From: Sedimentitalea nanhaiensis DSM 24252
Lineage (GTDB): Bacteria; Pseudomonadota; Alphaproteobacteria; Rhodobacterales; Rhodobacteraceae
Assembly (NCBI RefSeq): GCF_000473225.1
Contig: NZ_KI421509.1
Coordinates: forward strand, 2,577,741 to 2,641,740
Reading direction: 5' to 3'
DNA: 64,000 nucleotides
Shown: one piece after another, positions 28,784 through 39,252 of the stretch
Layout of the letters: each line of letters opens with the position of its first letter
Numbering within the stretch: position 1 is the first letter of the stretch
Made by a program: the position numbers and the translations under genes
The notes under the pieces: generated by a model
The model's database searches: none
Seen by the model: the letters and a program-made list of their open reading frames with translations, nothing else
What the model was told of the DNA's origin: nothing

Positions 28784-29305
28784 CTAATTCAGTACAAATT
28801 CCATGATCAGCAAATCACGCACACGCCCGGCACCTGCCACAACCTGTACGCGGCGCAGCATCTGAGCACGCAAGCGGGTCAGGGCCAGAGGGTCCTCGAG
28901 ATCTTCTAAGTCCAGCGCCCTGAGATAGCTGTTGAGAACATCGACGATTCGAGGAAGAATATGTTCAACATCAGCTTGATATGCTTCGGCGACTTCGAGC
29001 TGGGCACGGAAGCGCAGGTGTTGAACATGCTGGCCACCGCTTAGTGAGATCAGAATCGGTTCGATCTCGACAAATGCGATAGCTGGCAACATTTCGACAT
29101 GCTGGGCCGGCCCGGATTTATCGTCCGTATTGCCATGAGACGAAAACATGCCTGAAGACACCGCGTAGAACCCCCCACCAGCCCCAATCGAAGCCAGGAC
29201 CAGGGCCAAAATCATGTTTAGTTTTTTGGACTTGGACGGTTCTATCGGAGCGTCGGCTACAGCATCGGACATGGCGGATCCCATCGTTTCGTTCGAGATC
29301 TTCAT
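28784..29305 (-). CDS. fliL: Flagellar basal-body associated protein FliL
   Basis: 173 residues; ATGs at 29305, 29284 and 29272 are all possible, and 29305 has the best upstream site (GCAGGG). One membrane helix (LNMILALVLASIGAGGGFYAV) and a periplasmic domain with ILISLSGGQHVQHLRFRAQLEV and RAQMLRRVQVVAGAGRVRDLLIMEFVLN (read in short parts). This is the conventional FliL, first gene of the long minus-strand operon. It is divergent from fliF across only 44 bases that contain a CtrA-like site. Confidence 0.88.
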   Translation of the reverse strand: MKISNETMGSAMSDAVADAPIEPSKSKKLNMILALVLASIGAGGGFYAVSSGMFSSHGNTDDKSGPAQHVEMLPAIAFVEIEPILISLSGGQHVQHLRFRAQLEVAEAYQADVEHILPRIVDVLNSYLRALDLEDLEDPLALTRLRAQMLRRVQVVAGAGRVRDLLIMEFVLN

Positions 29306-29349: not shown

Positions 29350-31015
29350 ATGGCGGAACGTTGGCAGAACGTCGGCAATTCGGAGAACATCGTGCAGCAG
29401 ATCAAAACCGTGTGGGTCGGACTGGACAGGCGCAAACAGCTGGTGATCGTTTTGGCGGCACTGGCGATGCTTGCGACCCTTGTCGTCATGTCGCGAATGG
29501 CAGCGACCCCTACCATGAAGCTTTTATACGCCGGGCTGGAAAACGGGTCGGCGGGCGAAGTCATACGTGCGCTGGAACAGCGCGGAACGGTTTTTGATGT
29601 GCGCGGCGGATCGATCTATGTCCCGGCGAATCAGCGTGACGAGCTGCGCATGACCTTGGCGAGCGAGGGATTGCCCGCCAACGGAGGTCGTGGATACGAG
29701 CTGCTGGATTCTCTGACCGGGTTTGGAACGACCTCGCAGATGTTTGATGCGGCCTATTGGCGTGCAAAAGAAGGCGAGTTGGCGCGCACGATTGTCGCCA
29801 GTGCGCATGTCGCGCAGGCACGGGTTCATATCGCCAACAATGGATCCAGCCCGTTCCAACGCAGTGTCGAACCCACGGCATCGGTTTCCATCGTGCCAGC
29901 GGGTGCCCCTATCACGCCGACACAGGCAAATGCGTTACGGTTTCTGATTTCTTCGGCCGTGGCCGGGCTAACGGTCGAGAACGTTGCCGTTATCGATGCA
30001 AACGGCAGCTTGGTTGGTCCGTCCGATCCCGCTGCTGGACCCAGCACGGCCGATGACCGGGCGCAAATGCTGAAAGAGCGTATTTTGCGGTTGGTCGAAG
30101 CGCGGGTGGGCGCGGGCAATGCCGTGGTCGAAGTCAGTGTCGACATCGTGACCCAGACAGAATCCATTCGCGAACGCCGGTTCGACCCAGAAGGCCGGGT
30201 CGCAATCAGCACCGACACCGAAGAGCGTACCGATTCGTCCAAGAATGCTGCCGGAGGCGACGTTACAGTTGCCTCGAATTTGCCGGATGGCGACGCCGCA
30301 GAAGGCGAGGGCTCGCAAGCAAAGGCCAGCGAGGTTCGAGAGCGGATCAACTATGAAGTCTCTCAGACAGAGCTCGAGATTACCCGCGTGCCCGGAGCAA
30401 TCAAACGGCTGACTGTCGCGGTCCTCGTGAACGGGCTGAGCACACCCACAGAGGGTGGTGTCCCGACATTTCTGGAGCGCCCTGAAGAGGAACTTTCGGC
30501 GTTGCACGACCTTGTCGCGTCGGCCGTCGGGTTCGATGCCGAACGTGGGTGACGTGATCACCATGAAATCCATGGAGCTGCCTTCCATCGCCCCGCTCGG
30601 AACAGCGGCAGGTCCGACCTTTTTCCAGAGCCTGAACCTGGATGTGATGTCGCTGATCCAGATGGCGGCGCTGGCTGTCGTGGCGATGATTCTAGGTCTG
30701 TTCGTTGTCCGTCCGATCCTGTCCAAGCCAGTTGCCCTGCCGGCACCGGATACGGGGGCGCTGTCCGGAAACGGCGCGGAGTTGTCAGCGCAGTCGGGGC
30801 CGGTGCTGACCGGTGAAATCGCTGACGAATCAGGCGAATACACATCCACTGCCAGATTGGATTCACGGGGGGGGGCCGCGGGCACGGGCGTTGCGGCGCT
30901 CTCGGATGACGGGCCTTCACCGGTTGAACGCCTTCGTTCCATGATCGGTGAACGTCAAGAGGAAACTGTGGAAATTTTGCGAAGCTGGCTCGAAGAAAAT
31001 GAGGAGAATGCATGA
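29350..31015 (+). CDS. fliF: Flagellar MS-ring protein FliF, reading frame broken by a one-base shift
   Basis: The first frame encodes 400 residues (29350-30552) and stops at TGA. The second frame (from GAC at 30551) continues with typical FliF C-terminal sequence for another 154 residues, giving 554 in total, the normal FliF length. The N-part has the first membrane helix (QLVIVLAALAMLATLVVM) and the YscJ/FliF ring-building motifs (LLYAGLE, SRAxV-like ARVHIA, NYEVSQTE). The second part has DVITMKSMEL, the second membrane helix and the FliG-binding end VEILRSWLEENEENA. The break is at CGT GGG TGA C (30544-30553): removing one G restores the frame. A run of nine G (30867-30875) lies at residues ~506-508. 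Either a mutation, a sequencing error, or +1 recoding could explain it. Confidence 0.85.
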
Positions 31016-31614
31016 TGACGATATCGCATTTGCTCGAAGATTTCAGTGTCCCGGACAATGCTATTGAGCCCTTGCAGCTCATGAGCGAGGACGGCCTGGA
31101 AGATCTTCGGCTGGCATCTTTCGAGCAAGGGTATACTGCGGGGTGGGACGATGCGATCCGGGCTCAGGCCAGCGATCAGGCGCGGATCACGGGTGCCTTG
31201 GGTAATAACCTCGAGGATCTGTCCTTTACCTATCAAGAGGCCTTGGTGCAGATGATGACCGCTGTCGAGCCCGTCTTTCGTGGCCTTGTCGAGACAGTGC
31301 TGCCCGAGGCGCTCATGCAAAGCGTCGGAGAACAGATCGTCGAGCAATGCTGTGAAATGGCCATGGGGCAGGTCGCCCAGCCGGTCTCGCTGCTGGTGCC
31401 GCCAGGGGCGGCAAATGCAATTCAGCCGGCCCTACAGCGCAATCTTTCGATGCAGGTGGAGATTGTCGAGAGTGAAGACATGGGACCGGGTCAGGTCTGG
31501 TTGAAAGTCGGCGACCGAGAACGCGAGATCGATTGCGGTCAGCTTCTTACAAACCTGCGCAGTTCAATCGACGCATTCTTCTTCGACACAACAAAGGCGA
31601 CTGTCCATGGATAA
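31012..31614 (+). CDS. fliH: FliH-like regulator of the export ATPase
   Basis: 200 residues (ATG at 31012; a second ATG at 31015). FliH dimers bind FliI and tether it to the C ring. Typical plan: a charged N-terminus, Gly/Ala/Glu pattern in SFEQGYTAGWDDAIRA (the FliH 'FExGYxxG' box), a helical stalk, and a C-terminal VEIVESEDMGPGQVWLKVGDREREIDCG (short parts) domain. Sequence identity in this family is low, so part of the confidence comes from the fliF-fliH-fliN-fliP order. It overlaps the fliF C-terminal stop by four bases, evidence that translation normally reaches that stop. Confidence 0.75.
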   Translation: MMTISHLLEDFSVPDNAIEPLQLMSEDGLEDLRLASFEQGYTAGWDDAIRAQASDQARITGALGNNLEDLSFTYQEALVQMMTAVEPVFRGLVETVLPEALMQSVGEQIVEQCCEMAMGQVAQPVSLLVPPGAANAIQPALQRNLSMQVEIVESEDMGPGQVWLKVGDREREIDCGQLLTNLRSSIDAFFFDTTKATVHG

Positions 31615-31903
31615 GCAATCCGAAACTGGTGCGGCTGCACACGAGCAACCCAATCCGTTCGTTTCCGTCCCGATCGAAATTACGGTGTCCGTCGGCAAGG
31701 CTCGCCCACTGATCCGGGATCTTGTCAATCTTGGTGAAAACGCGGTCCTGACGCTGGACAAGCGGGTCGAGGATCCGGTTGAACTGTTTGTCGGTGATCG
31801 CCTCGTCGCGCGCGGTCAACTGGAGGAACTGAGCGGTGACCAAGCCGGGCAACTCGCGGTCAGGCTGACTGAAATCGCAGATTTTCAGAACGGCCTCGGA
31901 TGA
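31607..31903 (+). CDS. fliN: Flagellar C-ring switch protein FliN (short)
   Basis: 98 residues consisting almost only of the SpoA domain: VPIEITVSVGKARPLIRDL, LTLDKRVEDPVELFVGDRLVARGQL. FliN builds the lower C ring and takes part in the export and switch functions. E. coli FliN is 137 residues; the extra N-terminal region is missing here, which is common in alphaproteobacteria. It overlaps fliH by eight bases and fliP by ATGA. Confidence 0.9.
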   Translation: MDKQSETGAAAHEQPNPFVSVPIEITVSVGKARPLIRDLVNLGENAVLTLDKRVEDPVELFVGDRLVARGQLEELSGDQAGQLAVRLTEIADFQNGLG

Positions 31904-32646
31904 GATCAGGACATCGGATCGCAGTAACGCTGGCGATTGCCGTTGGTGCCGCAGCCTTGCCACACGCGGGCATTGCGCAGGAAATGACGCTGTCTCTGGG
32001 GGATGATGGTTCGATCTCTGCGCGGTCGATTCAGCTGATTATTCTGATCACGGTGCTCAGCATTGCCCCGGGGCTTGCGATCATGATCACCTGTTTCCCC
32101 TTTCTTGTGACGGTTCTGGCTATTCTGCGCCAGGCCATCGGCCTGCAGCAATCGCCACCAAACATGCTGATTGTCAGCCTGGCCCTGTTCCTGACGTATT
32201 TTGTGATGGAGCCCGTGTTCACGCAGGCCTGGGAAACAGGAATACGGCCCCTAATGAACGAGGAAATCGATATTGAAACCGCTATAGGGCTCAGCCTCGA
32301 GCCGTTCCGCGTTTTCATGGCCGCTCGGCTGGATCCGGACACATTCGGGGCGATGGCCGAGCTGCGGCCTGACGCTGAATCGATCCGGTCCGGCCCCGAC
32401 GCCCCCCTGTCGGTTCTGGTGCCCAGTTTCCTGCTGTCCGAAATCGCCCGTGCATTTCAGATCGGGTTTCTGGTTTTTCTGCCATTTCTGATCATCGATC
32501 TCGTTGTGGCCGCAGTTCTGATGTCGATGGGCATGATGATGGTCCCTCCCGCAATCGTTTCGCTACCGTTCAAGCTGGCCTTCTTCGTCGTCGCCGATGG
32601 TTGGAGCCTGATTGCCAGCGCACTTGTGCGGAGTTACTTTCCCTGA
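31900..32646 (+). CDS. fliP: Flagellar export-gate protein FliP
   Basis: 248 residues with a cleavable signal peptide (RIAVTLAIAVGAAALPHAGIA) and four membrane helices. FliP pentamers form the core of the export gate with FliQ and FliR. The family stretches are evident: CFPFLVTVLAILRQAIGLQQSPPNMLIVSLALFLT (as shorter parts), a periplasmic loop, and LLSEIARAFQIGFLVFLPFLIIDLVVA. Last gene of the fliF operon; no clear terminator follows before the LysR gene. Confidence 0.96.
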   Translation: MRSGHRIAVTLAIAVGAAALPHAGIAQEMTLSLGDDGSISARSIQLIILITVLSIAPGLAIMITCFPFLVTVLAILRQAIGLQQSPPNMLIVSLALFLTYFVMEPVFTQAWETGIRPLMNEEIDIETAIGLSLEPFRVFMAARLDPDTFGAMAELRPDAESIRSGPDAPLSVLVPSFLLSEIARAFQIGFLVFLPFLIIDLVVAAVLMSMGMMMVPPAIVSLPFKLAFFVVADGWSLIASALVRSYFP

Positions 32647-33705: not shown

Positions 33706-33735
33706 ATCATATGATGCGTTCAAAAATCGCGATTT
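33706..33735 (+). promoter_or_regulatory. Two palindromes upstream of the formate dehydrogenase genes
   Basis: ATCATATGAT (33706-33715) and AAATCGCGATTT (33724-33735) are perfect palindromes in the 110-bp region before the fused beta/gamma gene; the second is 52 bases upstream of its ATG. They could be operator sites for the LysR regulator encoded just upstream. The region is the AT-richest for several kilobases. Confidence 0.35.
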
Positions 33736-33787
33736 GATGCGATGAAGAAATTCTGAAACATGTGCTTAGACAAACGGAGTGTGGCAG

Positions 33788-35479
33788 ATGAACGTATCGA
33801 ACGCGAAACCCGGCATATGGAAGAGTGGTCGCGGGCGTGGTCGTGTTTTTCCGAAGGGTCGTCAGTACGAGGACGATGCGCTTGAGGCGGTTCGGGATTT
33901 GTTGGGGGATTTGCCCCGGCGGCGGGATTTGCTGATTGAGCATCTGCATCTGATTCAGGACCGGTATGGCCATCTGAGCGCGGGGCATCTTCGGGCGCTG
34001 GCCGAGGAGATGCGGCTGAGCCAGGCCGAGATCTATGAGGTGGCGACGTTTTACGCGCATTTCGATGTGGTCAAGGAAGGCGAGGCGCCGCCTCCGGCGC
34101 TGACGATCCGGGTTTGCGACAGCCTGTCGTGCGAGCTGGCCGGGGCGCAGCAGCTGCGCGCGGCGTTGCAGGACGGGCTGGATCCGGCGCAGGTGCGGGT
34201 GTTGCGCGCGCCCTGCATGGGGCGTTGCGACACGGCGCCGGTGCTGGAGATCGGCCACAACCACATCGATTGTGCCACGCCGGACAAGGTCGCGGCGGCG
34301 ATCGCGGCAGACGATACCCATGCCCATGTGCCTGATTACGAGGACCTGGCGGCTTATCGCGCGGGCGGCGGCTATGAGCAGTTGCAAACCCTGCGCGCGG
34401 GCAGCGAGACGCCGGATGCGGTGCAGGAGCGGGTGCTGTCCTCGGGGTTGCGGGGCCTGGGCGGAGCCGGGTTTCCGTCGGGCAAGAAATGGTCCTTTGT
34501 GCGCGCCGAGGCCGGGCCGCGTTACCTGGCGGTCAACGGGGACGAGGGCGAGCCGGGCACCTTCAAGGACCGCTATTACCTGGAACGCACTCCGCATCTG
34601 TTCCTTGAGGGCATGCTGATCGCGGCCTGGGCGGTGCAGGCGGAAACATGCTTTATCTACATGCGCGACGAATATCCCGCCGTGCTGGCGATCCTGGCCC
34701 AGGAGATCGCCGCGCTGGAAGCCGCCGGGCTGGTGCCGGCAGGGTATATCGACCTGCGCCGCGGTGCCGGGGCTTATATCTGCGGCGAAGAAAGCGCGAT
34801 GATCGAAAGCATCGAGGGCAAGCGCGGCATGCCGCGCCATCGCCCGCCGTTTGTGGCGCAGGTGGGGATCTTCGGTCGGCCGACGCTGGTGCATAACGTG
34901 GAAACGCTGCATTGGGTGGCGCGGATCTGCCGCGAGGGCCCCGATGTTCTGGGCGGCACCGAGAAGAACGGGCGCAAGGGTCTGCGGTCGTTTTCGGTTT
35001 CTGGCCGGGTGCGCAATCCGGGGGTGCACCTGCTGCCGGCGGGGTCGACCATCATCGACATCATCGCGGCGGCGGGTGGTATGGCCGAGGGTCATGTGTT
35101 CAAGGCCTATCAGCCGGGCGGGCCGTCGGCGGGGCTGCTGCCGGCCAGCATGGATGACATCCCGATGGATTTCGACACGCTGCAACCGCATGGCAGCTTT
35201 ATCGGCTCGGCCGCGATCGTGATCCTGTCCGACCGGGATCGGGCGCGGGACGCGGCGCTGAACATGTTGCGGTTCTTTGAGGACGAGAGCTGTGGCCAAT
35301 GCACCCCCTGCCGGGCGGGCTGCGAAAAGGCGGTCAAGCTGATGCAGGCCGACACCTGGGACAAACCGTTGCTGGACGAGCTTTGCGCGGTGATGGTCGA
35401 TGCCAGCATCTGCGGGCTGGGGCAGGCGGCGCCCAATCCGATCCTGCTGACGATGAAACATTTTGCCGACGAGGTCTGA
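33788..35479 (+). CDS. fdsB: NAD-dependent formate dehydrogenase, fused gamma/beta subunit
   Basis: 563 residues from ATG 33788 (RBS ACGGAG; a GTG at 33779 would add three). Residues ~25-165 are a NuoE-like domain with a 2Fe-2S cluster: Cys110, Cys115, Cys143, Cys147 in RVCDSLSC and APCMGRC. The rest is NuoF-like: FMN/NAD motif GLRGLGGAGFPSGKKW (~220), NGDEGEPGTFKDR, GAGAYICGEESA, and the 4Fe-4S Cys502, 505, 508 and 542 (SCGQCTPCRAGC, SICGLG). In Rhodobacter capsulatus FdsG and FdsB are separate; the fusion matches Fdh1B-type enzymes. It passes electrons from the alpha subunit to NAD+ in the cytoplasm. Confidence 0.9.
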   Translation: MNVSNAKPGIWKSGRGRGRVFPKGRQYEDDALEAVRDLLGDLPRRRDLLIEHLHLIQDRYGHLSAGHLRALAEEMRLSQAEIYEVATFYAHFDVVKEGEAPPPALTIRVCDSLSCELAGAQQLRAALQDGLDPAQVRVLRAPCMGRCDTAPVLEIGHNHIDCATPDKVAAAIAADDTHAHVPDYEDLAAYRAGGGYEQLQTLRAGSETPDAVQERVLSSGLRGLGGAGFPSGKKWSFVRAEAGPRYLAVNGDEGEPGTFKDRYYLERTPHLFLEGMLIAAWAVQAETCFIYMRDEYPAVLAILAQEIAALEAAGLVPAGYIDLRRGAGAYICGEESAMIESIEGKRGMPRHRPPFVAQVGIFGRPTLVHNVETLHWVARICREGPDVLGGTEKNGRKGLRSFSVSGRVRNPGVHLLPAGSTIIDIIAAAGGMAEGHVFKAYQPGGPSAGLLPASMDDIPMDFDTLQPHGSFIGSAAIVILSDRDRARDAALNMLRFFEDESCGQCTPCRAGCEKAVKLMQADTWDKPLLDELCAVMVDASICGLGQAAPNPILLTMKHFADEV

Positions 35480-35482
35480 GCC

Positions 35483-38266
35483 ATGAGCGAGACAGTCACC
35501 TTTACCCTGGATGGCGCAGAGGTCACCGCCGAGGCGGGCCTGACGATCTGGGAAGTCGCCAACGGGCGCGGTCTCACGATCCCGCACCTGTGCCACAAAC
35601 CGGCCCCCGGCTATCGCCCGGACGGCAATTGCCGCGCCTGCATGGTCGAGATCGAAGGCGAGCGGGTGCTGGCCGCCAGCTGTATCCGCGAACCGGCCCC
35701 CGGCATGGTGGTCAAGACCGCCACGGCGCGGGCCAAAAACGCCCGCAAGATGGTGATGGAACTGCTGGTGGCGGATCAGCCGGAACCGGCGGTGGCGCAT
35801 GACAAATCCAGCCATCTGTGGGACATGGCGGCGCTGAACGGGGTGCAGACCAGCCGCTTTCCCAAGCTGGAAGAGGGGCGGATTCCGCTGTTGGATGACA
35901 GCCACGTGGCGATGTCGGTCAACCTGGATGCCTGCATCCAGTGCGGGCTGTGCGTGCGCGCCTGCCGCGAAGTTCAGGTCAATGACGTGATCGGCATGTC
36001 GGGCCGGGGTCACGATGCCTGGCCGACGTTTGATTTTGCCGACCCGATGGGGCAAAGCACCTGTGTGGCCTGCGGCGAATGCGTTCAGGCCTGCCCGACC
36101 GGCGCGTTGATGCCCGCCAGCGTGGTCGATGCGGACCAGGTCGGCGACAGCGCCGATTACGACGAGGCGGTCAACAGCGTCTGCCCGTTCTGCGGCGTCG
36201 GCTGTCAGGTCAGCCTCAAGGTCAAGGACGGCCGGATCAAATATGTCGAAGGCATCAACGGCCCCGCCAACGAAGGCCGGCTCTGCGTCAAGGGCCGGTT
36301 CGGCTATGATTACATCCACCACCCGCACCGGCTGACCAGGCCGATGATCCGGCGTGCGGATGCGCCGCCCAAGGGTCTGAACGTGGATCCGGGCGACCTG
36401 TCGACCCATTTCCGCGAGGCGAGCTGGGAAGAGGCGCTGGATTTTGCCGCCGGTGGCATGACCCGGCTGGCCCAGGCCCATGGCGGGCGGGCGGTGGCCG
36501 GGTTCGGCAGCGCCAAATGCACCAACGAAGAGGCCTATCTGTTCCAGCGCCTGATCCGCGAGGGGTTCGGGCATAACAATGTCGATCACTGCACCCGGCT
36601 GTGCCACGCCAGCTCGGTGTTTGCGCTGATCGAGAATGTCGGTTCGGGCGGGGTGACGGCGACTTTCAACGAGATCGAAAATGCCGATGTGGCGATCGTG
36701 ATCGGGGCCAACCCGGTCGAGAACCATCCGGTTGCGGCGACCTATTTCAAACAGTTCACCAAGCGCGGCGGCAAGCTGATCGTGATGGATCCGCGCGGGG
36801 TGGGCCTGCGCCGGTTTGCATCGCACATGCTGCAATTCCGCCCCGGCGCGGATGTGGCGATGCTGAACGCGATCATGAACGTGATCGTCACCGAAGGGCT
36901 GTATGACCAGCAATATATCGACGCCTATACCGAGAACTGGGAAGCGGAAAAGGCGCATCTGGCCGATTTTACCCCCGAGGCGATGGCACCGGTCTGTGGC
37001 ATCGACGCGCAGGTGCTGCGCGACGTGGCCCGTACCTTTGCCGGGGCAAAATCGGCGATGATCTTCTGGGGCATGGGGGTGTCGCAGCATATCCATGGCA
37101 CCGACAATTCCCGCTGTCTGATCAGCCTGGCGCTGATGTGTGGCCATATCGGCCGCCCCGGCACCGGATTGCATCCGCTGCGCGGCCAGAACAACGTGCA
37201 GGGGGCGAGCGATGCCGGCCTGATCCCGATGTTTCTGCCCGACTACCAGAGTGTCACCGACGACGGGGTCCGCCGCGCGTTTACCGATGTCTGGGGCAGC
37301 GGCGACTTCAGCAATGAAAAGGGGCTGACCGTCACCGAGATCGTCGACGACATCCATGCCGGGCACACTAAAGCGATGTATATCCTGGGCGAGAACCCGG
37401 CGATGTCGGACCCGGATGTGGACCACGCCCGCGAGGCGTTCGCCAAGCTCGAGCATCTGGTGGTGCAGGATATCTTTCTGACCGAGACGGCGAATTACGC
37501 CGACGTGCTGCTGCCGGCCTCGACGCTGTATGAAAAGACCGGCACCGTGTCCAACACCAACCGGCAGGTGCAGATGGTACGCCCCGCCGTCAGTCCACCG
37601 GGACAGGCGCGCGAGGATTGGTGGATCGAGGTCGAACTGGCCAGGCGCCTGGGGCTGAACTGGACCTTCACCCACCCCGGCGAGATCTATACCGAAATGG
37701 CGCAAAACATGCGCAGCCTGGACAACATCACCTGGCAGCGGCTGGAAACCCAGGCCGTGACCTATCCCAGCCTCAGCCCCGAAGACCCGGGTCAGGCGGT
37801 GGTGTTCGGCGACGGTTTCCCGCGCCCCGAGGGCCGCGCCCGGTTCACCCCGGCCAAGGTGATCGCACCTGACGAGGCCCCGGACGACGACTATCCGATG
37901 ATCATGACCACGGGGCGGCAGCTGGAACATTGGCACACCGGCTCGATGACCCGGCGCGCCAGCGTGCTGGACGCGGTCGAACCCGAAGCCAACGCCTCGC
38001 TGCACCCGGCCACCCTGCGCAGGCTCGGCGTCGCGCCCGGCGACATGATCACCCTGCAAACCCGCCGCGGCAGCATCGACATCATGGCCCGCGCAGACCG
38101 CGCGATCGCCACCGACATGGTCTTCGTCCCCTTCGCCTATGTCGAAGCCGCCGCCAACACCCTCACAAACCCCGCAATCGACCCGTACGGCAAAATCCCA
38201 GAATTCAAATTCGCCGCGTGCAACGTCAGAAAATCGGAAGCGCCGGAAGTGACTGCGGCCGAGTGA
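35483..38266 (+). CDS. fdsA: NAD-dependent formate dehydrogenase, molybdenum catalytic (alpha) subunit
   Basis: 927 residues, the FdsA length. It oxidises formate to CO2 at a bis-MGD molybdenum (or tungsten) site. Order of domains: 2Fe-2S ferredoxin-like N-terminus (CHKPAPG...GNCRACMVEI...LAASC), 4Fe-4S pairs (CIQCGLCVRACREVQ and CVACGECVQACPTGA), the Mo-domain 4Fe-4S (CPFCGVGCQVSL), then the MGD fold. The active-site ligand is Cys374 followed by His375 (HCTRLCHASS); Cys replaces the selenocysteine of E. coli FdhF. It starts 3 bases after the beta gene. No fdsC/fdhD or fdsD follows. Confidence 0.95.
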   Translation: MSETVTFTLDGAEVTAEAGLTIWEVANGRGLTIPHLCHKPAPGYRPDGNCRACMVEIEGERVLAASCIREPAPGMVVKTATARAKNARKMVMELLVADQPEPAVAHDKSSHLWDMAALNGVQTSRFPKLEEGRIPLLDDSHVAMSVNLDACIQCGLCVRACREVQVNDVIGMSGRGHDAWPTFDFADPMGQSTCVACGECVQACPTGALMPASVVDADQVGDSADYDEAVNSVCPFCGVGCQVSLKVKDGRIKYVEGINGPANEGRLCVKGRFGYDYIHHPHRLTRPMIRRADAPPKGLNVDPGDLSTHFREASWEEALDFAAGGMTRLAQAHGGRAVAGFGSAKCTNEEAYLFQRLIREGFGHNNVDHCTRLCHASSVFALIENVGSGGVTATFNEIENADVAIVIGANPVENHPVAATYFKQFTKRGGKLIVMDPRGVGLRRFASHMLQFRPGADVAMLNAIMNVIVTEGLYDQQYIDAYTENWEAEKAHLADFTPEAMAPVCGIDAQVLRDVARTFAGAKSAMIFWGMGVSQHIHGTDNSRCLISLALMCGHIGRPGTGLHPLRGQNNVQGASDAGLIPMFLPDYQSVTDDGVRRAFTDVWGSGDFSNEKGLTVTEIVDDIHAGHTKAMYILGENPAMSDPDVDHAREAFAKLEHLVVQDIFLTETANYADVLLPASTLYEKTGTVSNTNRQVQMVRPAVSPPGQAREDWWIEVELARRLGLNWTFTHPGEIYTEMAQNMRSLDNITWQRLETQAVTYPSLSPEDPGQAVVFGDGFPRPEGRARFTPAKVIAPDEAPDDDYPMIMTTGRQLEHWHTGSMTRRASVLDAVEPEANASLHPATLRRLGVAPGDMITLQTRRGSIDIMARADRAIATDMVFVPFAYVEAAANTLTNPAIDPYGKIPEFKFAACNVRKSEAPEVTAAE

Positions 38267-38371
38267 ACTTGACCCGGCCGTTCCAACCAAGGGGCAGGCT
38301 GGGGCGGACAACCGTTGCATGGCAATCTGCGCTCCTGCATGACTGGCAGACGCAAATGAGGACGGCGACAA

Positions 38372-39070
38372 ATGACTGCAAGCCTGTTTGATATTCCAGT
38401 CGTGCCCGGAATCCGGGTCAACGGCGAGACTGCAACCTATCCCATCGGTCGGATATTCTGTGTTGGGCGCAACTATGCCGCCCACGCTGCCGAGATGGGG
38501 GTCGAGGTCGATCGGGAGAAGCCGTTCTATTTCACCAAATCTCCGGCGGCGGCCGTGTCGAGCGGCGCGCATGTGCCTTATCCGCCGGGTACGGAAAATT
38601 ACCATTATGAGATGGAGTTGGCCCTGGCGATCGGTCGCCCGGTGTTTCGGGCCGACACGGATCAGGCGCGATCTGCAATCTATGGGTATTGCTGTGCACT
38701 GGACATGACGCGCCGCGATCTGCAACTCAGCGAACGGGCGAAGCAACGCCCTTGGTCGCTGGGCAAGGATGTCGAGAATTCCGCCGTTTTTGCGCCAATG
38801 ACCAAGGCTGACGACATGACGCCCATCACCAATCAGCGTATTCACCTTTCGGTCAATGGCGAGATCCGGCAGGATGGGACCTTGGCCGAGCTGATCTGGA
38901 AGCTGGATGAGATCATTGTGCATCTGTCCGGTTTCTATCATTTGCGACCGGGAGATCTGATTTTGACGGGGACACCTGCAGGGGTTGGGCCAGTTGTGGC
39001 GGGTGACGCGATCACCGGCGGCATCGACGGATTGGATCCGATATCTCTGACCCTGACGCGACCGGAATAG
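38372..39070 (+). CDS. Fumarylacetoacetate-hydrolase-family protein (fumarylpyruvate-hydrolase-like)
   Basis: 232 residues, the size of single-domain FAH proteins. Metal ligands are visible in NYHYEMELALAIG (Glu-x-Glu) and the later Asp of CALDMTRRDLQ, plus the C-terminal GDLILTGTPAGVGPV. The start IFCVGRNYAAHAAEMG is typical of fumarylpyruvate/acylpyruvate hydrolases that cleave C-C bonds of diketo acids from aromatic breakdown. The actual substrate cannot be read. It lies 105 bp after fdsA and 223 bp before the TRAP genes, on the same strand, so a link to an organic acid taken up by the transporter is possible. Confidence 0.8.
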   Translation: MTASLFDIPVVPGIRVNGETATYPIGRIFCVGRNYAAHAAEMGVEVDREKPFYFTKSPAAAVSSGAHVPYPPGTENYHYEMELALAIGRPVFRADTDQARSAIYGYCCALDMTRRDLQLSERAKQRPWSLGKDVENSAVFAPMTKADDMTPITNQRIHLSVNGEIRQDGTLAELIWKLDEIIVHLSGFYHLRPGDLILTGTPAGVGPVVAGDAITGGIDGLDPISLTLTRPE

Positions 39071-39252
39071 CCGAAACGCAAACGCCCGGCTGCCTTTCGC
39101 CACATTGGCCGGCACACTGTCTCTCCCGCCACACCGGTTCGAACCGTCGCGCATTGTGCCGCGGATGTGAGCGGGCAGGCGTTCCTGTGCGTATGGAAAC
39201 GGCTGCCGCCATGACCGAGAGCGAGCTGGGCGTTGCTGTTTTTGGCAAAACC

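Follow-up and report, generated by a model that had tools for sequence, protein, structure and literature searches.

The window, i.e. the whole stretch of 64,000 nucleotides analysed here, comes from Sedimentitalea nanhaiensis DSM 24252 (contig NZ_KI421509.1) and carries a fliF gene that is spread over two consecutive open frames among other flagellar genes (Table 1). Read directly, positions 30544-30553 are CGT GGG TGA C; the first frame stops at this TGA and the remainder of fliF follows in the +1 frame. The initial annotation had described a fliF split by one extra base at this place, with 400 residues up to the TGA and a FliF C-terminus of 154 residues in the +1 frame. Both statements are borne out by the list of open reading frames (ORFs) and by the alignment with a congener (G003): the DNA of the present genome has one extra base at the break point, and its 154-codon +1 frame is 73% identical to the C-terminus of the congener FliF over 147 amino acids. 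The total of 554 residues that had been expected agrees with the open frames of 559-565 codons of the four congeners. The frame break as an observation is confirmed, far beyond chance.

The piece of 400 amino acids matches the Pfam families YscJ_FliF (1.9e-45) and YscJ_FliF_C (2.8e-30). The second match ends at position 137 of the 147 of the profile, which places the break near the end of the YscJ_FliF_C domain. Alone, the C-terminal piece (30551-31015) matches no Pfam family; we take it, using the usual domain names, to be the end of RBM3, the second membrane helix and the FliG-binding tail. This piece is embedded in the operon in the normal way, as had been noted from the fliH overlap: the start of the fliH-like gene at 31012 falls inside the end of the +1 frame, whose stop ends at 31015, and this overlap is a normal one.

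Nine ORFs that neighbour fliF (between 21547 and 32643) are all open, and six of them are named by matches above the Pfam cut-off, to FlhA, MotA, FliL, FliN, FliP and a transglycosylase. The earlier remark that the other flagellar genes look intact was checked for these in-window neighbours, and there it holds. When the window is compared with G003, fliF is the only frame change flagged inside it, and one row is flagged for a stop (G000:C4:2587101-2587646). Further along, on the minus strand (33707-39154), an open frame of 1815 codons runs antisense to genes that look by eye like formate dehydrogenase genes; we took it as a by-product of high GC content.

YscJ_FliF has a single match in the whole genome (4.95 Mb, 7 contigs). 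A second copy of fliF that would make the break harmless was considered and rejected, none being found elsewhere in the genome. Among the plasmids of the public collection, which may omit the records closest to this genome, 111 records match FliF, all with less than 60% identity. As a separate observation on plasmids, the 236-kb contig shares a 9.5-kb stretch surrounding repABC (L112, G000:C7:10480-20000) with a plasmid of Sagittula sp. P11 at 100% identity, which suggests recent exchange or common origin.

Table 1. Features of the fliF locus (window positions) and genes with one-base breaks elsewhere in the assembly. G000 is this genome, C4 and C7 are contigs of it, G003 is a congener and L-numbers are loci.
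Feature	Position	Strand	Description and basis
fliL	28784..29305	-	divergent neighbour, open; Pfam
fliF, N-terminal open frame	29350..30552	+	400 codons, ends with TGA 30550-30552; ORF list and Pfam
Break site GGG-TGA-C	30547..30553	+	one base longer than the relatives' frame; sequence, G003 alignment, 80/80 named relatives and 4/4 congeners in one frame
fliF, C-terminal part, +1 frame	30551..31015	+	154 codons; alignment to congeners
GTG codon in the C-terminal frame	30554..30556	+	possible re-initiation codon, one base after the TGA; sequence and inference
Nine consecutive G, C-terminal part of fliF	30867..30875	+	in phase with both flanks
fliH-like gene	31012..31614	+	overlaps the fliF end; without a Pfam match when taken alone, named from position and by the initial annotation
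fliN (FliMN_C)	31607..31903	+	Pfam
fliP	31900..32646	+	Pfam
TssL/DotU-OmpA gene	L177:8990-10418 (G000:C4 about 1986730-1988158)	-	Pfam points to the type VI secretion kind; frame changes at a run of nine G
DctM transporter gene	L181:6147-7446 (G000:C4 about 2063887-2065186)	-	split at a run of nine G
Solute-binding protein gene	L191:9752-10766 (G000:C4 2267492-2268506)		split at a run of four C; Pfam: extracellular solute-binding
Glutaredoxin gene	L146:3603-3936 (G000:C4 2461343-2461676)	-	split at a run of four G
MocR-type GntR/aminotransferase regulator gene	L176:6154-7541 (G000:C4 about 1963894-1965281)	-	one-base deletion by its frame

The initial annotation had suggested an alignment with fliF of close relatives as a check, and no relative examined has the extra base at the site. 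In 4/4 congeners FliF is encoded in one frame and the DNA is uninterrupted across the site; for two of them, G001 and G002, the opposite strand was read. The Arg-Gly-Asp stretch lies in one frame in 80/80 named relatives, encoded by CGN or AGR, GGN and GAY. These 80 are the best of 443 confirmed relatives; loci L012, L014, L016-L019 and L021 are outside this count. Past the site, 79 of the 80 continue for at least 141 codons. The exception is Roseobacter sp. GAI101 (L073), whose fliF has a frame break of its own, about 33 codons further on (near L073 4164-4270). A family-wide search found FliF in 219 of 295 genomes. Among the 150 matches listed from these, the present genome is the only one with a frame below 531 residues (409, with one TGA), the other 149 all having frames of at least 531 residues. 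Six other listed rows have a stop inside the match together with frames of at least 539 residues, and these stops were taken as normal ends.

To assess coding constraint, the parts of fliF before and after the break were aligned separately with the congeners and the codon changes were assigned to lineages. Downstream of the break, the lineage of this genome has 19 silent and 5 replacing changes and the G003 lineage has 13 and 8; upstream of it, the numbers are 48 and 16, versus 43 and 17. Observing at most 5 replacing changes out of 24 has a probability of about 3e-7, assuming a replacing share of 0.72 for unconstrained change. The C-terminal codons are thus still constrained, indicating that this part functioned as coding sequence during most of the lineage's history. 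The break is then either very recent, spurious or bypassed. An old pseudogene was rejected on the same constraint on the downstream codons. What is found at fliF, a break absent from the relatives with constraint still visible downstream, is the pattern of a single-genome indel.

Other one-base breaks are present in the assembly. Set against 0.80 Mb of G003, 1.20 Mb of this genome yielded 5 candidate frame changes among 414 orthologous genes. Inspection left 3 of them, in fliF, in a glutaredoxin gene and in the gene of a solute-binding protein, by our guess of the iron type. Each of the three is a one-base insertion. The 2 other candidates were dropped as N-terminal extensions of mechanical ORFs; all 4 rows flagged for a stop (two ORFs) were also dropped. 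With 1.90 Mb of this genome (442 ortholog pairs) the candidates were 6, i.e. the same 3 breaks, 2 N-terminal cases and 1 undecided (G003 377403-378740). The reverse comparison (416 genes) gave 3 candidates, none of which was kept; they were taken as N-terminal ends of mechanical ORFs (one was aligned in detail), and its 4 stop rows were dropped too. The breaks counted are frame changes, with no claim on nonsense mutations. These stricter counts replace looser first ones, which had flagged many mechanical ORFs, antisense-looking or N-terminally extended.

A reference-free scan of codon usage added three genes: TssL (DotU plus OmpA), DctM and a MocR-type regulator. Of the 381 switches in this genome, 24 counted as candidates. 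We kept TssL, DctM, MocR and the binding protein and regard a resolvase (contig C7) and an ABC permease (C4:2755074) as uncertain; the remaining candidates were judged by eye to be gene ends or mobile elements. fliF and the glutaredoxin gene are outside the 24; the stop of fliF is too close to the switch, and the glutaredoxin piece is, we suppose, too short. The same scan of G003 (0.80 Mb) gave 7 candidates among 202 switches, none of which was kept. In each of the three the Pfam match is split between two frames at matching profile positions: DotU (2-76 and 72-204), DctM (1-328 and 327-411) and, in the MocR-type regulator, the aminotransferase (17-119 and 133-355). The reading by eye of 76 switches also showed a possible damaged ammonium transporter at C4:210131. 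Apart from the one-base breaks, a tandem duplication of 17 bases breaks the frame of a short-chain dehydrogenase-like gene, named by eye (G000:C4 about 2917210-2917290); it looks like a natural mutation.

In total, six breaks in 1.90 Mb (five insertions at G/C runs and one deletion, that of MocR, at no long run) compare with none accepted in 0.80 Mb of G003 (p about 0.12). If fliF, which was the reason for the search, is set aside, the comparison is five versus none (p about 0.17). The breaks were accepted by eye and the sample of this genome includes plasmid stretches; an excess of one-base breaks in this assembly over G003 is suggestive only. G/C runs of at least 8 number 34 in 1.903 Mb here versus 5 in 0.800 Mb of G003 (p = 0.022), a draft in which long runs may be too few on technical grounds. 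For runs of four to seven this genome shows no excess.

We regard the fliF break as a one-base indel private to this genome, for which an assembly error is more likely than a fresh mutation. On balance we lean towards the extra base in this short G-rich stretch being a residual sequencing or assembly error, of the type that leaves one-base length errors at G/C runs; the fliF of the living strain would then probably be unbroken. In favour of an error, the break is seen in this genome alone (4/4 congeners and 80/80 named relatives read through the site, and 149/149 other listed family matches have frames of at least 531 residues), the codons downstream still evolve as coding, and the assembly has further one-base breaks. 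Against it, the run at the break has only three G, which is short for a machine error, the MocR deletion is at no long run, and the 17-base duplication looks like a natural mutation. The choice between error and mutation rests on the other breaks and the run lengths, both suggestive only. The extra base, its absence in relatives, the constraint and the further breaks are observed; that the breaks are errors rather than mutations is what we infer. Real mutations also favour G/C runs.

A real insertion is a serious competitor, somewhat less probable: a recent loss-of-function mutation (or a reversible slippage mutation), perhaps acquired in culture, that would leave a FliF of 400 residues and a non-flagellated strain. 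The base is present in the assembly, the break lies inside the conserved C-terminal domain (Pfam; alignment to Salmonella FliF), and the constraint data allow a very recent event. The fliF of GAI101 shows that such breaks occur in deposited genomes, though it may be an error too. The one-base breaks in other genes, in contrast, are not explained by a selective loss of motility. The nine open neighbouring ORFs also speak against a real insertion, though they would look the same after a fresh mutation. As for phase variation by slippage, a long run or tandem repeat is absent at the break, where only GGG is found; the run of nine G is elsewhere in the gene and in phase.

The domain layout of FliF includes RBM3, a second membrane helix and a FliG-binding tail. 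With a real insertion, translation would stop at a point that aligns with about residue 427 of Salmonella FliF, within the RBM3 region. The resulting protein of 400 residues would be devoid of the second membrane helix and of the FliG-binding tail, and most likely no working ring would form. In PMC8092281, truncation is reported to remove the density assigned to TM2 and to the cytoplasmic region.

The initial annotation had left the choice between mutation and +1 recoding. The indel half of this proposal stands; the recoding half does not, given a site that is not conserved (4/4 congeners, 80/80 named relatives), the lack of an upstream booster and a downstream fold with z = 0.33. Programmed or leaky recoding would consist in a slip from GGG to GGT at a poorly terminating TGA-C, so that some full-length FliF is made; we consider it very improbable. 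The same holds for a slip private to this strain that would occur at a useful rate and still yield full-length FliF. From the sequence, GGG-TGA-C is a candidate slippery codon before a stop, and re-pairing one base on is permitted. TGA-C also resembles the prfB site, and the C-terminal part is still under constraint. A conserved shift site, the main sign of programmed shifts, is nevertheless missing in all the congeners and named relatives, and the break occurs in none of the other family matches listed either. We agree with the initial annotation that the bases just upstream contain, by eye, no SD-like element. Compared with shuffles, the 90 bases that begin with the TGA show no better folding.

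An altered tRNA was considered because the first three breaks (fliF, glutaredoxin and binding protein) all lie in Gly GGG or Pro CCC codons. Classic +1 suppressors of the sufD/sufA/sufB kind need such codons and carry an enlarged anticodon loop. All 45 tRNA matches were read as tRNAs by ARAGORN, and its output gives an ordinary form and the usual length for the three types of Gly (CCC, GCC and TCC) and the three of Pro (GGG, TGG and CGG). The frame of the m1G37 methyltransferase TrmD is open, with 284 codons without a stop. Suppression by a tRNA would moreover need +1 breaks only, whereas the MocR break is a one-base deletion, which argues against a general +1 reader. Recoding by an altered tRNA was thus rejected, the tRNAs being ordinary as reported by ARAGORN and the further breaks including a deletion and long G runs.

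The weakest explanation is a split gene: two separate products, the second started by re-initiation at the GTG just past the stop and in the C-terminal frame, would together give a working MS ring. By eye, this GTG lacks a clear ribosome-binding site. With the break inside the RBM3 region, the halves would have to complement each other within a fold, and no relative examined is split here.

Returning to the private indel, and to an error as its more likely origin, the case calls for caution, since a neat GGG-TGA-C break can pass for a recoding site as long as the relatives and the remaining assembly are left aside. A handful of additional one-base breaks appears to be present in the assembly; consequently a count of broken genes, or a prediction of non-motility, made from it is not trustworthy without the reads.

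Among the records returned for Roseobacter, flagellar, fliF and frameshift nothing bears on this case (one Ochrobactrum paper surfaced), and the titles returned for fliF, frameshift and homopolymer include none on this group. The known +1 programmed frameshift of prfB has, as presented in PMC3711429, the consensus CTT_TGA_C with an upstream SD-type element. The fliF site shares with it the TGA followed by C and the +1 direction, and differs by the lack of an SD element, another slippery codon and the absence of conservation. Within fliF itself, GAI101 offers a likeness, also a single-genome frame break; its different position, further on in the gene, points to an independent event or error. 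Gene-fragmenting indel errors of long-read assemblies, as described in the accounts of Kastor (PMC12007338) and Homopolish (PMC8011154), produce the same frame breaks in otherwise intact genes, with the difference that here long reads are only suggested by the single 4.41-Mb contig. A close likeness is with the singleton frameshifted genes of prokaryotic assemblies: the main text of Antonov et al. 2013 (PMC3711429), in which fliF has 0 occurrences, classes singleton frame transitions as likely indel mutations or sequencing errors. Like them, the fliF break is a transition found in one genome and devoid of a conserved shift site, and nothing essential sets it apart from them.
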